From: Chloroflexota bacterium
GTDB lineage: Bacteria; Chloroflexota; Anaerolineae; Anaerolineales; Villigracilaceae
Direction: 5' to 3'
Assembly (NCBI GenBank): GCA_016213105.1
Contig: JACRBN010000026.1
Coordinates: forward strand, 62,001-126,000
DNA length: 64,000 bases
Under the pieces are notes generated by a model that saw only the letters and a program-made list of their open reading frames with translations, was not told where the DNA came from and did no database searches. The translations under genes were made by a program, and so were the position numbers. This document shows positions 42,831 through 47,920 of this stretch, piece after piece (position 1 is the first letter of the stretch; every line of letters begins with the position of its first letter).

Positions 42831-42842
42831 AGGTTTATTATA
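42831..42842 (-). promoter_or_regulatory. Leaderless-type promoter of mobA
   Basis: On the minus strand TATAAT spans 42842-42837 and ends 6 bases before the ATG at 42830. It also touches the start codon of the divergent radical SAM gene, so the two are separated by only 11 bases. Confidence 0.55.
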
Positions 42843-43954
42843 TGACTTCAACGGCTGAGATACTAGATGCTTTAACGGTACAAGGCGAACTCTATACGGC
42901 GGAAGCCGATGCTTCGGTGCGCTGCTTTGCCTGCGGGCACCGCTGCCTGATCCGCCCGGGCAAACGCGGCATTTGCCAGGTGCGCTTCAACGAGGGCGGA
43001 AAGCTGCGTGTGCCCTTCGGTTACGTGGCGGCTTTGCAAAGCGACCCCATCGAGAAGAAACCCTTCAACCACGTGCTGCCCGGCGCGACTGCGCTGACCT
43101 TTGGGATGCTGGGTTGCGATTTTCACTGTTCCAACTGCCAGAATCATTTCACCTCCCAGGCCATGCGCGACCCGGCTTCGGATGAGGCGGTCAACTACAT
43201 CCGCCGCGTGACGCCTGCGCAGGTGGCGCAAACCGCGCAGCGCACGGGAGCGTCCATCATCGTATCCTCGTATAATGAGCCGCTTATCACCAGCGAGTGG
43301 GCCGCCGCGATTTTCAAGGAGGCCAAGGCTGCCGGCTTGAAATGCGCCTACGTCTCGAACGGCAACAACACGCCCGAGGTAATGGAATACCTGCGTCCCT
43401 ACCTGGATGCCTACAAGGTCGATCTGAAGAGCATGAACGATAAGAACTATCGCAGCCTGGGCGGGGTATTGAAAAATATACTTGATGGAATCCAGCGCGC
43501 GCGGGACATGGGACTGTGGGTCGAGGTGGTCACGCTGGTCATCCCCGGCTTCAACGACTCCAACGCGGAGCTGTGGGAGGTGGCCCGTTTCCTGGCAGGA
43601 CTCTCGCCCGACATTCCCTGGCACGTGACCGCCTTCCACAAGGATTACAAGATGACCGATCCCGACAACACCGATGCGGCCACGCTCCAGCGCGCCGCCG
43701 ACATCGGGCGCGAGGCCGGGCTGCGTTACGTCTACGCCGGCAACCTGCCGGGGCGGGTGGGGGAATATGAAGACAGCCATTGTCCCAACTGCAACCGCGT
43801 GCTGATCAAGCGCCGCGGCTATGTCATCCGCGAATATAACCTGACCGCGCAGGGCGCCTGCCCGCAGTGCGGAACGAAAATTCCCGGCATGTGGCCGTCG
43901 GATCCTTCCAAAGCCCGTTTGAATGCATCCGTCCTGCCTGTTCCGATCTGGTGA
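42842..43954 (+). CDS. amrS: AmmeMemoRadiSam-type radical SAM enzyme (AmrS-like)
   Basis: 370 residues. The radical SAM cluster cysteines are C92, C96 and C99 (GCDFHCSNC). An N-terminal CFACGHRCLI with a later GICQ, plus C-terminal CPNC and CPQCG knuckles, match the AmrS/PflA-like family. Members pair with AMMECR1 and Memo proteins in a system of unknown substrate; those partners are not in this window. AGG lies 8 bases before the ATG, a weak site. Confidence 0.85.
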   Translation: MTSTAEILDALTVQGELYTAEADASVRCFACGHRCLIRPGKRGICQVRFNEGGKLRVPFGYVAALQSDPIEKKPFNHVLPGATALTFGMLGCDFHCSNCQNHFTSQAMRDPASDEAVNYIRRVTPAQVAQTAQRTGASIIVSSYNEPLITSEWAAAIFKEAKAAGLKCAYVSNGNNTPEVMEYLRPYLDAYKVDLKSMNDKNYRSLGGVLKNILDGIQRARDMGLWVEVVTLVIPGFNDSNAELWEVARFLAGLSPDIPWHVTAFHKDYKMTDPDNTDAATLQRAADIGREAGLRYVYAGNLPGRVGEYEDSHCPNCNRVLIKRRGYVIREYNLTAQGACPQCGTKIPGMWPSDPSKARLNASVLPVPIW

Positions 43955-44052: not shown

Positions 44053-44127
44053 ATGTTCCATTCAACCCTGACTTGTATGTGTTCGTGCCCCATCCATCTT
44101 TTTTATCTCCGGAGGAGAAAACTGTGA
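44053..44127 (+). CDS. 24-residue Cys-rich upstream ORF overlapping the binding-protein gene
   Basis: MFHSTLTCMCSCPIHLF and a basic end; three cysteines lie within five residues. AAAGGAGG lies 10 bases before the ATG. Its TGA (44125-44127) overlaps the GTG start of the next gene. The peptide passes over the second ribosome site (GGAGGAG), so it can couple or attenuate translation. Cys-rich upstream ORFs are known as cysteine-responsive attenuators in mycobacteria; a parallel here is only a suggestion. Confidence 0.5.
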   Translation: MFHSTLTCMCSCPIHLFYLRRRKL

Positions 44128-45803
44128 AACGCCATGTCTCTGTTCTGCTTACGCTGGTCGTCCTGGCCAGCCTGCTGCTGGCGGCCTGCGGCGGTGGTTC
44201 CCAACCCGCGGTCCAAACTGAAGGCCTGAAGGAAGAGGCCTTTGCCCCCACCAAGCTCGAAGCCCCCGATTGTGAATACGGCGGCGAGATCAAGTCCATC
44301 GAAGCGGTGGATGAACTCACAGTCAAGATCACACTGTGCGTGCCCGATCCTGCCTTCCCCTCGAAGATTGCATTCACCTCCTTCGCGGTCCAGCCCCGGG
44401 AATATCTCCAGTCGACCGGTGGAAATGGTGCCCTGCTCGAGAAACCGATCGGCACCGGCCCGTACTATGTGGCGCAGTGGGAACGCGGCAACCAGCTCGT
44501 CTTCAAGGCCTTCGGCGATTATTGGGGCGAAAAGGCCAAGGTCGATACCCTGGTCTTCCGCTGGGGCACTGAGTCTGCCCAGCGCCTGCTCGAACTGCAG
44601 TCCGGCACAGTGGACGGCATCGACAATGTCGGCCCGGATGATTTCGCCACCGTCGAGGGTGACTCGAACCTGGCGCTCATGACCCGCCCGGCCCTCAACA
44701 TCATGTACATCGGCATCAACAACACCTTCGCGCCCTTCGACAACGAACTGGTGCGCCAGGCCTTTGCCCAGGCGATTGACCGCCAGCGCATCGTGGATAA
44801 CTTCTACCCGGCCGGCTCCGAAGTGGCTTCCCACTTCACCCCGTGCTCCATCCCGAACGGCTGCGTGGGCGATGCCTGGTATGACTTCAATCCTGATGCC
44901 GCCAAGGCCCTGCTCGAAGAAGCCGGCTACAATGCCGACAATCCCTTCCCGACCATCAAGCTGCACTACCGCGACGTCGTGCGCGGCTACCTGCCCGACC
45001 CGAACGTTGTGGCGCAGGACATCCAGGCCCAGTTGAAGGAAAACCTGGGCGTGACCGTTGAAATCGACGTGATGGAATCCGGCGCGTTCCTCGATGCGGC
45101 CGACTCCGGCTCGCTCGACGGCCTGCACATGCTGGGCTGGGGCGCGGACTATCCCGACCAGACCAACTTCGTCGGCTACCACTTTGGCGCCGGCTCCTCC
45201 AAGCAGTTTGGTGACAAGTACGAAGATCTCGTGGCTGCCATCGAGTCGGGCGCCCAGCTTGCCACCGATGCGGAGCGCAAACCCTTCTACGAGGAAACCA
45301 ACAAGCTCATCAAGCAGCACGTCCCGATGATTCCCGTGGCTCACGGCGGCTCGGCTGTGGCCTACAAGGCGGCTGTGACGGGTGGCCATGCCAGCCCGCT
45401 CGGCAACGAAAGCTTCTCGGTGATGTCCAACGGCGCCGACACCTTCGTGTGGATGCAGAACGCCGAACCCATCTCGCTCTACTGCGCGGATGAGACCGAC
45501 GGCGAATCCCTGCGCGCCTGCGAACAGGTGACGCAGTCCCTGCTCGGCTACGAAGTTGGCGGCACCGCTGTCGAGGCTGTCCTGGCTGAGTCCTACGAAG
45601 CCAGCGACGACCTGATGACCTGGACCTTCAAGCTGCGCCCGGACGTCAAGTTCCACAACGGCTTCACCCTGGATGCCGCCGACGTCGTGGCCTCGCTTGT
45701 CCTGCAATGGGATGCTTCCAACCCGCTGCATACCGGCAACACCGGTGCGTTCTCCTACTGGAGCGGCCTCTTTGGCCCGTTCCTGAACGCCCCGGCAGAG
45801 TAA
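44124..45803 (+). CDS. Peptide/dipeptide ABC transporter substrate-binding lipoprotein, apparently circularly permuted
   Basis: 559 residues from GTG 44124 (GGAGGAG 6 bases upstream), lipobox LLAAC (C22). The fold is SBP_bac_5, but in an unusual order. After the linker, residues about 50-435 correspond to the middle and end of normal family members (IKSIEAVDELTVKITL, GTGPYYVAQWERG, DYWGEKAKVDTLVFRW, GGHASPLGNE). The part normally at the N-terminus comes last (about 439-559: FVWMQNAEPISLYCADETDG, AESYEASDDLMTWTFKLRPD, VKFHNGFTLDAADVV). The C-terminal end GLFGPFLN would normally run straight into IKSIEAVD. It carries several close Cys pairs. It is followed by a hairpin and two permeases. Confidence 0.85.
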   Translation: MKRHVSVLLTLVVLASLLLAACGGGSQPAVQTEGLKEEAFAPTKLEAPDCEYGGEIKSIEAVDELTVKITLCVPDPAFPSKIAFTSFAVQPREYLQSTGGNGALLEKPIGTGPYYVAQWERGNQLVFKAFGDYWGEKAKVDTLVFRWGTESAQRLLELQSGTVDGIDNVGPDDFATVEGDSNLALMTRPALNIMYIGINNTFAPFDNELVRQAFAQAIDRQRIVDNFYPAGSEVASHFTPCSIPNGCVGDAWYDFNPDAAKALLEEAGYNADNPFPTIKLHYRDVVRGYLPDPNVVAQDIQAQLKENLGVTVEIDVMESGAFLDAADSGSLDGLHMLGWGADYPDQTNFVGYHFGAGSSKQFGDKYEDLVAAIESGAQLATDAERKPFYEETNKLIKQHVPMIPVAHGGSAVAYKAAVTGGHASPLGNESFSVMSNGADTFVWMQNAEPISLYCADETDGESLRACEQVTQSLLGYEVGGTAVEAVLAESYEASDDLMTWTFKLRPDVKFHNGFTLDAADVVASLVLQWDASNPLHTGNTGAFSYWSGLFGPFLNAPAE

Positions 45804-45874: not shown

Positions 45875-46954
45875 ATGACCACTTACATCCTGCGACGTCT
45901 CCTGCTTAGTATTCCCGTTCTCATTGGAATTTTATTTGCCACATTTGCGTTGAGTCGGCTGATCCCCGGTGACCCGTGTCGTGCCATGCTGGGTGAAAAG
46001 GCGACCGACGCTGTGTGTAATGAATTCATCTCAAGGCATGGGCTGGACAAGCCCATCTTGGTGCAGTTTGGGGTGTACGTCAACGAGATCGCGCATGGCG
46101 ACTTTGGACGCTCCTTCCGCTTTTCCAAGCCGGTCACCGATCTGTTGATGGAGCGCCTGCCCATCACGGTCGAACTGGCTGTTTCGGCCCTGCTGGTCAG
46201 CATCCTCGTGGGGGTGCCGTTGGGCGTGATTTCCGCAGTACGCCACAACTCCTGGGTGGACGTGCTTACCATGTTGTGGGCCAACATCGGCGTCTCGATG
46301 CCGGTCTTCTGGCTGGGTTTGATGCTGGCCTACGTCTTTGCCCTGGCCCTAAAAGATACCCCCTTCCAGTTGCCGCCTTCGGGCCGGCTTTCGCCCGGCA
46401 TTATCACCGTGCCTTTTTATGAGGTGTGGGGCATGTCGCTGGGGCAGGGTGGTTTCTTTTATAACCTTGCCGATTTCGTCGGCCGCATGAACATCCTGAA
46501 CTCGGTCCTGTCCGCCAACTGGGAAACCCTCGGCGATGCGCTCAAACACTTGATCCTGCCCGCCGTTGCCCTGGGCACCATCCCGATGGCGCTGATCGCC
46601 CGCATGGCGCGCTCGGCCATGCTGGAGGTGCTCGGCCAGGATTACATCCGCACGGCGCGCGCCAAGGGCCTGACCCGCAACGTGGTTATCATGAAACACG
46701 CCTTCCGTAACGCCCTGCTCCCGCTGGTGACGGTCATCGGCCTGTCGCTGGGCGGCCTGCTGGGCGGCGCGGTGCTGACCGAGACGGTCTTCAATCTCTC
46801 GGGCGTGGGACGCATTTTATACGATGCCATCACCGCCCGCGATTATGGCATCGTCCAGGCCTTCACGGTCGTCATCGCCGTGTTCTTTGTTGTCCTCAAT
46901 CTGATCGTGGATATTTCGTACGCCTATCTCGATCCGCGCATTCGCCTGAACTAG
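45875..46954 (+). CDS. ABC transporter permease, DppB/OppB type
   Basis: 359 residues, 6 predicted membrane helices. N-terminal YILRRLLLSIPVLIGILFATF with the RLIPGDP motif, and the EAA loop MLEVLGQDYIRTARAKGL that contacts the ATPase. The early extracytoplasmic segment has a Cys pair (GDPCRAMLGEKATDAVC) unusual for the family. It pairs with the DppC-type permease 9 bases downstream. Confidence 0.9.
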   Translation: MTTYILRRLLLSIPVLIGILFATFALSRLIPGDPCRAMLGEKATDAVCNEFISRHGLDKPILVQFGVYVNEIAHGDFGRSFRFSKPVTDLLMERLPITVELAVSALLVSILVGVPLGVISAVRHNSWVDVLTMLWANIGVSMPVFWLGLMLAYVFALALKDTPFQLPPSGRLSPGIITVPFYEVWGMSLGQGGFFYNLADFVGRMNILNSVLSANWETLGDALKHLILPAVALGTIPMALIARMARSAMLEVLGQDYIRTARAKGLTRNVVIMKHAFRNALLPLVTVIGLSLGGLLGGAVLTETVFNLSGVGRILYDAITARDYGIVQAFTVVIAVFFVVLNLIVDISYAYLDPRIRLN

Positions 46955-46963
46955 GACAGTCTC

Positions 46964-47920
46964 ATGTCTGCCGACACACCCAAAATCGCAAAACTCGACG
47001 CGGAAGGCCTGTCCCTCAAATCTGTCAGCTTGTGGCAGATCACCTGGCGGAGACTCTTCAAACGCAAATCGGCCGTGCTGGGCATGGTCATTCTGGGCAT
47101 CATGGTCTTCGTGGCGCTGACCGCCCAGTGGATCGCGCCCTATCCCCCGACCCTCTCGATGCTGGATGCGAAGCCGCCCCAGAACCTGGACAAACGCTCG
47201 TCCCCCTGCATTCACCTGTTCGGCTGCCCCGCCGACCAGCCCCAGCACATCCTCGGCACGGACGGCAACATCCGCGACGAGTTCAGCCGCCTGCTCTTCG
47301 GGTCGCGCCTGAGCCTGATGGTCGGCCTGGCCACGGTCAGCTTTGCCATTGCCATCGGAACCGTGCTGGGCGCCCTGAGCGGATATTTCGGCGGCTGGGT
47401 CGACAACCTCATCATGCGCATCATGGATGTGCTGCTGGCCTTCCCCTCGCTGCTGCTGGCGATTGCCATCGTGACCGTGCTCGGCCCCGGGCTGATCAAC
47501 GCCCTGCTAGCGATTGGCATCGTCTCCATTCCCTCCTATGCCCGCGTGGTGCGCGCCTCGGTGCTCTCGGTGCGCGAGATGGACTACGTCTCGGCCACAC
47601 GCGCGCTGGGCGGCAACACCAACCAGATCCTGTTTCACCGCATCCTGCCCAACGCCTTGACGCCGTTGATCGTGCAGGGCACGCTCGGCATCGCCACCGC
47701 CATCCTGGACGCCGCGGCGCTTTCCTTCCTGGGCCTGGGCGCACAGCCGCCGACGCCCGAATGGGGTTCCATGCTCGGCGCGGAACGCAACCAGGTTTTC
47801 ACCGCTCCGCACCTGGTCTTCTACCCGGGCCTGGCCATCATGCTGACCGTGCTCTCCTTCAACCTGCTTGGCGACGGCCTGCGCGATGCGCTCGACCCGC
47901 GCCTGGCGCATGTCAGTTAG
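46964..47920 (+). CDS. ABC transporter permease, DppC/OppC type
   Basis: 318 residues with the N-terminal OppC segment (LWQITWRRLFKRKSAVLGMV), an extracytoplasmic insert with a Cys pair (SPCIHLFGCPAD), the HILGTDGNIRDEFSRLL-type motif and the EAA loop VREMDYVSATRALGG. The operon ends here with a terminator. No DppD/DppF ATPase gene follows, so ATPases must be supplied from another locus. Confidence 0.9.
   Translation: MSADTPKIAKLDAEGLSLKSVSLWQITWRRLFKRKSAVLGMVILGIMVFVALTAQWIAPYPPTLSMLDAKPPQNLDKRSSPCIHLFGCPADQPQHILGTDGNIRDEFSRLLFGSRLSLMVGLATVSFAIAIGTVLGALSGYFGGWVDNLIMRIMDVLLAFPSLLLAIAIVTVLGPGLINALLAIGIVSIPSYARVVRASVLSVREMDYVSATRALGGNTNQILFHRILPNALTPLIVQGTLGIATAILDAAALSFLGLGAQPPTPEWGSMLGAERNQVFTAPHLVFYPGLAIMLTVLSFNLLGDGLRDALDPRLAHVS

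Follow-up and report, generated by a model that had tools for sequence, protein, structure and literature searches.

The DNA analyzed here (the window) is a stretch of 64,000 nucleotides from a Chloroflexota bacterium. It holds a gene, which we named CP1, for a lipoprotein of the SBP_bac_5 family (PF00496) whose chain order is circularly permuted, followed by genes for two permeases. The features to which the text refers are the following.

44111..44117, forward strand: RBS-like GGAGGAG, 6 bases 5' of the GTG start, by direct reading
44124..45803, forward strand: CP1, circularly permuted SBP_bac_5 lipoprotein, 559 aa, open frame throughout
44124..44189, forward strand: signal peptide that forms the new N-terminal anchor; lipobox LLAAC (Cys22) by inspection
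44256..45422, forward strand: segment B, residues 45-433, the family core and old C-terminus; from structure alignment and HMM B
44982..44984, forward strand: Arg287 codon, aligned with DppA Arg355 (Arg383 with signal peptide), the carboxyl clamp
45147..45149, forward strand: Asp342 codon, aligned with DppA Asp408 (Asp436 with signal peptide), the amino clamp
45405..45443, forward strand: residues 428-440, where the old C-terminus is fused to the old N-terminus; from the sequence
45423..45800, forward strand: segment A, residues 434-559, once the N-terminal part of the family and here at the C-terminus; from structure alignment and HMM A
45875..46954, forward strand: DppB-like permease, matching E. 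coli DppB (8z1v) at E 5e-77
45995-46000, forward strand: scoop-loop pair Glu41/Lys42 of the DppB-like permease, aligned with E. coli Glu41 and Arg42
46964..47920, forward strand: DppC-like permease, 295.6 bits to NCBIfam DppC PRK10913, missing the cut-off of 483

The CP1 protein starts with a lipoprotein-like signal containing LLAACGGG, and a tether follows the signal peptide to about residue 44. The order in the gene is lipobox and tether, then the core and old C-terminus (residues 45-433), then the N-terminal part (434-559); HMM A and HMM B, with which the segments were read, were both derived from the permuted family. Every peptide fragment quoted in an earlier note on this DNA, which had proposed a true circular permutation, was found in the open reading frame. 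Directly 5' of CP1, at 42842-43954 on the forward strand, lies a gene for an AmmeMemoRadiSam system radical SAM enzyme (TIGR04337), an arrangement that is also seen in many relatives.

The CP1 protein scores 265 bits against Pfam SBP_bac_5 (gathering score 32.4; E 1.5e-78), and the match falls into two stretches, the best of which places residues 53-358 on profile positions 62-365. A search of the genome with the same profile located the second stretch, corresponding to profile positions 2-52, 3' of the first. Members of the family carry the N-terminal part before the core; in CP1 the core comes first, and the protein is a permuted form of the SBP_bac_5 family rather than an ordinary member. 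Alignments with solved structures gave the same picture. Residues 441-549 align with HbpA 5-120 and residues 55-426 with HbpA 125-497, and for E. coli DppA residues 472-554 align with positions 35-123 and residues 56-432 with 124-502. In both cases the stretches are swapped and do not overlap, which shows that the segment order is reversed and that the pieces are complementary.

Rotation of the chain provides further support. Against a profile of length 498 built from 13 unpermuted relatives, the natural CP1 chain gave two pieces in reversed order (324.7 and 83.2 bits), and the chain rotated to place A before B gave a single match of 419.8 bits over profile positions 6-497. When the chain was rotated in 25-residue steps, only the three of 22 rotations that adjoin the true seam gave a single piece, the others giving two. 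At the seam between B and A, a median of 0 residues were gained or lost (range -2 to 4) in 113 ORFs, three of which are copies of the window gene and all of which were measured with models from the same family. The pairwise distances of A and B correlate across 100 permuted rows (Mantel r 0.775, a value reached in none of 500 permutations). One protein with a single history would show such a correlation between its parts. CP1 thus has the properties of a natural circular permutant: it is complete after rotation, its old ends are joined, its new ends lie elsewhere, and its fold is given by a model. Taken together, window positions 44124-45803 encode one complete, non-overlapping SBP_bac_5 protein in true circularly permuted order. 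The claims of the earlier note that the two halves are jointly complete and that the old C-terminus runs directly into the old N-terminus hold as well. For annotation, the case illustrates that linear profiles break permuted proteins into odd pairs of matches.

By structure alignment, the chain is cut at about DppA 123/124 and OppA 134/135. The earlier note had placed the new termini in domain I. The position in the first lobe stands, and the name depends on the scheme: under the OppA scheme, in which we take domain II to span about 45-168, the cut would fall in domain II, whereas in the available part of PMC7312458 the first lobe is domain I and the wording is fair.

An AlphaFold prediction of the CP1 protein, made with 45 sequences, gave one fold with a mean pLDDT of 90.0 and a pTM of 0.87. 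Ten-residue blocks over segment A have pLDDT values of 81-98, and residues 1-17 of the mature chain lie below 50. The model was compared with solved structures using Foldseek and VIA-align, and only segment B was aligned (model residues 22-417); these aligners keep chain order, so that segment A was left out and its place in the fold comes from the model alone. Segment B superposes on DppA (1dpp) with a Z score of 29.5 and 2.1 Å over 381 residues, pairing model residues 31-416 with chain residues 120-507. Among the matches listed (the best 60 of 100, and the best 50), the solved structures that match CP1 are family-5 binding proteins. From the model, we infer that the CP1 protein folds like DppA.

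The permuted order is not confined to the window. Among 79 loci fetched from one-per-species genomes, 74 share the CP1 order, which answers the search for homologues suggested in the earlier note; four have a second order (CP2, described below), and one, L078, is a frameshifted copy of a permuted gene that the HMMs left unclassified. The 79 loci are partly non-independent (L027 and L028 come from a single bin), and four of the 74 are cut at the 5' end (L027, L028, L059, and L066). By record title the 74 comprise 63 Chloroflexota, seven Actinomycetota, three Promineifilum (phylum lacking in the look-up), and one Acidobacteriota bin. Ilumatobacter nonamiensis YM16-303 (L046), the record of which is not marked as a metagenome bin, has the CP1 order, and the nearest relative of that order, from a different assembly, is 89% identical (L001). 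In a second collection, a CP1-type protein was found in 38 of 301 genomes of the window's phylum, the window genome included; the order was read by HMM for 36 of these, and the match in G227 spans residues 13-413 only. Identity among the CP1-order matches runs from 100% down to 37% (lowest in G104:C23, order read at L136). The other matches begin at 38% identity and cover residues of about 50-435, with one (G070) reaching 475 through a stop, and the 13 fetched loci among them all have A followed by B. CP1 is a member of a large permuted clade, mostly of Chloroflexota, and not a one-off.

For phylogenetic analysis, the sequences were rotated to a common order and 17 duplicate, partial, or N-containing loci were left out, which left 96 CP1, 4 CP2, and 16 unpermuted rows, 116 in all. 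From these, 68 rows went into the first tree (50 CP1, of which 28 were hand-chosen and 22 random, 4 CP2, and 14 unpermuted). The second tree used 48 rows under other sampling, with six unpermuted, and excluded 10 partial, broken, or repeated loci. Both trees separate the permuted proteins as a single clade from the unpermuted ones (support 100/98 and 100/100, respectively). Since the unpermuted order is general in the SBP_bac_5 family, as the Pfam profile likewise reflects, the permuted order is probably derived. The clade also differs from its unpermuted relatives in three cysteine sites. LC, SLYC, and LRAC carry Cys in 96/96, 95/96, and 95/96 CP1 rows, compared with 0/16, 1/16, and 2/16 unpermuted rows, and disulfides formed by these cysteines are possible.

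Within the clade lies a second permutation. In L071-L074 the HMMs read the order B(219-386), A, B(2-226), which we named CP2, and the alignment of L071 with HbpA breaks into three stretches, of which the third comes first, followed by the first and the second. Against the unpermuted profile, L071 gave 294.6 and 105.4 bits in its natural order and a single match of 409.0 bits when rotated. CP2 occurs in 10 of 147 genomes of one family, all in one genus (g213), and its order was read at L165-L174, with L169 missing the 5' part and L170 containing an in-frame stop. Relatives of the same family at 65-71% identity have the CP1 order (e.g., L175-L186), as does G422 of genus g213. The CP2 clade (support 100/100) is nested in CP1, with stars on several of the branches that enclose it together with CP1 rows; support for its immediate sister is lower (85/82). 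Holding the CP1 rows together to the exclusion of CP2 cost 25.6 log units in the second tree (AU p 0.025, a post hoc value, as the test was applied after the first tree was known). A structure prediction for CP2 from four sequences reached a pLDDT of 41.5, too poor for use. CP2 adjoins dppB and dppC in all four loci, as CP1 does in relatives. Another CP2 copy, L205, has one in-frame stop. A contig at first taken to hold CP2 fused to another protein (G438:C222, L202) was dropped, as the remainder is AT-rich and unrelated and the contig is probably chimeric.

The CP2 proteins retain traces of the order from which they came. They keep the fused seam of CP1 (SPLGNENFSVxSNGTDTFVWMQNGEP), and the loop at the site of the CP1 ends holds what appears to be the former CP1 N-terminal extension (DNGGLLSMTAPNCDYGG-like). 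No such extension was seen in the 14 unpermuted relatives compared. The Cys column of the extension has Cys in 67 of 96 CP1 rows and a gap in 19; in all 16 unpermuted rows it is a gap or non-Cys. Retention of a former N-terminal extension in an internal loop indicates the direction CP1 to CP2, and in-frame fusion of two CP1 copies with later trimming would be expected to leave both the seam and the internal extension. Our working model is that CP1 would have arisen by tandem gene duplication, in-frame fusion, and trimming of both ends, and that CP2 would have arisen by the same steps acting again on the permuted gene. Two different CP1 genes do stand in tandem in G351:C93 (L200, 2061-5927, reverse strand; frames of 589 and 580 aa), raw material for such a route. 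This locus was the only candidate for a fused-duplicate intermediate in the loci read (a 1289-aa frame), and it was rejected because it reads as two separate CP1 frames. G422 was likewise considered as a gene split at the CP2 cut site and rejected; both of its frames carry an undetermined residue at the break, for which reason an assembly gap is assumed.

Other accounts of the CP1 order were weighed against these data. Most of the sequences come from metagenome bins, which could raise the suspicion that assembly, binning, or frame errors produced the order; its recurrence at 74 of 79 loci, across identities down to 37% and in I. nonamiensis YM16-303, reduces the probability of such an error to nearly nothing. 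It is also very improbable, if slightly less so, that a second, degenerate binding domain makes up the C-terminal segment, a reading to which the two stretches reported by Pfam might lead. The stretches (profile 62-365 and 2-52) are complementary with no repeat, the C-terminal piece is the sole copy of the N-terminal segment, the rotated chain matches the unpermuted profile in one piece, and AlphaFold returned one high-confidence model. The earlier note had named both an error and a second domain as grounds for abandoning its proposal, and neither was found. As to the route, the same permuted protein could result from gene fission and reversed re-fusion or from recombination of two binding-protein genes. 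Fission and fusion are named among the routes to circular permutants in the accessible part of PMC2395249, and a fused duplicate is missing from the loci read. We nevertheless regard such a history as unlikely, given that A and B have a single shared history, that the vestigial extension inside CP2 is a prediction of head-to-tail CP1 fusion, that tandem CP1 genes are present in G351, and that the break between the two frames of G422 is better read as an assembly gap than as a fission. Tandem duplication, in-frame fusion, and trimming is the most likely origin of the permutation.

The gene context points to a dipeptide importer. The closest solved permease to the window's DppB is E. coli DppB, even though its score against the NCBIfam DppB model (295.6 bits) is below the cut-off of 590. 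Where the locus extends far enough, genes for dppB and dppC usually adjoin CP1; they are non-adjacent in some members (e.g., L109, L111, and L136). Among the DppB matches of at least 50% identity in the fetched loci, the scoop pair is Glu-Lys or Glu-Arg in 109 of 111. No match to a DppD/F-type ATPase (oligo_HPY) was found within the window; elsewhere in the genome there are 12 matches, 11 of them above the cut-off, which suggests that the energy subunits are probably shared. Scanned for promoters and terminators, the surroundings of the operon gave no excess over shuffled sequences (2 against a shuffled mean of 1.2, sd 1.3, and 3 against a mean of 4.7).

E. coli DppA grips its dipeptide through Asp408 at the amino end and Arg355 at the carboxyl end, as stated in the available part of PMC8566422. 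In the excerpts of PMC12136057, which numbers these residues 436 and 383, a charge swap of the two abolishes binding, and Glu41 and Arg42 of DppB form salt bridges to the same two residues. The CP1 protein has both, as Arg287 and Asp342 (DppA Arg355 and Asp408 in mature numbering). The Arg is kept in 95/96 CP1, 4/4 CP2, and 14/16 unpermuted rows and the Asp in 96/96, 4/4, and 15/16, respectively; being equally common in unpermuted relatives, the residues speak for the ligand class and not for the permuted clade. Against the NCBIfam DppA equivalog NF043070, CP1 scored 196.3 bits in two stretches, with a cut-off of 1005. It may be a relative of DppA, possibly DppA-like in action, that does not belong to the same equivalog. 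With DppB and DppC as neighbors and both clamp residues in place, CP1 is most likely the binding protein of a dipeptide importer, and we consider it very probable that the gene encodes a circularly permuted substrate-binding lipoprotein of the DppBC type. The protein would then work like DppA, with dipeptide binding and transport predicted from sequence.

Our current hypothesis for the mechanism is as follows. A turn a few residues long would join the old C-terminal strand to the old N-terminal one, with the chain reopened in a first-lobe loop that now bears the signal peptide, the lipid anchor, and the tether. The CP1 protein would close on a dipeptide with Asp342 at the amino end and Arg287 at the carboxyl end, and the loaded protein would dock on DppBC. 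The DppB scoop loop (Glu41/Lys42) would take over the clamp and the peptide would pass into the channel, with ATPase subunits presumably supplied from other loci of the source genome.

The same permuted fold could instead serve a ligand other than a dipeptide, such as glutathione, heme, an opine, or a metal chelate, or have a sensing role. Several observations are in keeping with this: the best structural relatives among the matches listed include the glutathione-binding GbpA/HbpA besides DppA, the family binds mixed ligands (judging by the names among those matches), the NCBIfam equivalog cut-offs were missed, and an additional binding domain from a different family is present in some members. 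Moreover, the clamp residues also align in HbpA/GbpA and do not exclude such ligands. However, the near-complete conservation of both DppA clamp residues in the CP1 rows and the finding that no solved permease is closer to the window's DppB than that of E. coli make another ligand or role the less probable option, and we favor a dipeptide for CP1. Two diverged permuted paralogues, L207 and L208 (G421 and G429), lie outside the 96 rows and by eye are without the carboxyl-clamp Arg; matches similar to them occur in G418, G424, and G427, and the ligand of these paralogues is perhaps a different one. As L207 and L208 seem to have no clamp Arg, not every member need bind dipeptides.

A search of the source genome revealed 13 SBP_bac_5 genes (15 matches, two genes having two each), one of which is a second permuted lipoprotein, named CP3, recognized by profile comparison with 7fi3 and located as follows.

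G000:C24:552058 on, equal to 1059-3656 of L212 (G000:C24:551000-561000), forward strand: CP3, second permuted SBP_bac_5 lipoprotein, 865 aa

CP3 has an Ig-like C-terminal extension, recognized by eye. Its unpermuted relative is the OppA-like protein of PDB 7fi3 (732 aa, presumably archaeal), compared with which the chain order is reversed: in a profile of 14 CP3 family sequences, positions 480-733 match 63-306 (E 8.9e-14) and positions 68-311 match 323-586 (E 6e-34). Relatives of CP3 occur in 21 of the 201 genomes searched in the phylum. In 16 the match is single and colinear over most of the query, in one (G168) it is split into two pieces without a change of order, and in four it is distant (27-30% identity). 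Downstream of CP3 are two OppD/DppF-like ATPases and a permease that shares 28% identity with the window's DppB along part of its length. Projected on DppA, the cut sites are at about 210 for CP3, about 123 for CP1, and about 340-350 for CP2. By these profile comparisons, CP3 is a third permutation, cut elsewhere and independent of CP1 and CP2.

Natural circular permutants are often spotted by remote structural comparison once their history is lost, and circular permutation among OpuAC-type proteins has already been described. The glycine-betaine- and molybdate-binding proteins compared with CPSARST (PMC2395249, in its accessible part) are related by circular permutation among ABC binding proteins, as is CP1 to its family; unlike CP1, that case is a remote, structure-level relation between families (<24% identity). 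A closer precedent is TpMglB-2 (Tp0684; 'Type Ic', 'Cluster Bc'), a natural permuted ABC binding lipoprotein with ligand binding retained, described in the available part of PMC4990184. It is a cluster B sugar binder, of another fold class than CP1, in which Pfam detects SBP_bac_5 alone at E values up to 0.1. The same part of PMC4990184 makes no mention of a second permutation for TpMglB-2, whereas one is present in the CP1 clade. E. coli DppA and H. parasuis HbpA/GbpA (PF00496, cluster C) resemble CP1 in family, in the predicted fold of segment B, in the clamp Arg and Asp, and in the DppB/DppC partner. They differ in having A before B and lack the lipid anchor that CP1 carries on a first-lobe loop. 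Permuted ABC binding proteins are thus already known in other clusters, and none was found in family 5 among the papers listed: our search for a permuted family-5 or oligopeptide-binding protein covered a literature that mostly excluded subscription titles. CP1 offers a protein of more than 500 residues with unpermuted relatives, a permuted clade, a nested second permutation, traceable identities, and the same operon type. Because the unpermuted, CP1, and nested CP2 forms can all be traced, the duplication model is testable step by step; the nested permutation and the separate CP3 add to the interest of CP1.

The authors of PMC4990184 raise, in its available part, the possibility that permutation suits membrane tethering, and CP1 makes it testable whether the position of the anchor matters for docking on the permease. 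We tentatively suggest, at somewhat less than even confidence, that permutation in family-5 binding proteins of Chloroflexota is recurrent and even serial (one step from canonical to CP1, a further step to CP2 in place inside a single genus that left an internal N-terminus fossil, and, apart from these, CP3 in an OppA-like family), and that the moves of the anchored end, which in CP1 also gave a site for the attachment of a second binding domain at a minimum of three tree places, would have been selected because the proteins are tethered. At the new N-terminus, where the lipid anchor sits on a first-lobe loop, seven loci carry a second binding domain, which is Peripla_BP_6 in L019, L023, and L101 and SBP_bac_3 in L021, L024, L029, and L045 (L023, L029, and L101 extend to the end of the DNA examined). 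This pattern of anchor and added domains fits, without proving, a permutation that suits tethered binding proteins. The added domains fall at three places in the first tree, namely L021/L024/L029, L045, and L019, with L023 and L101 outside that tree.
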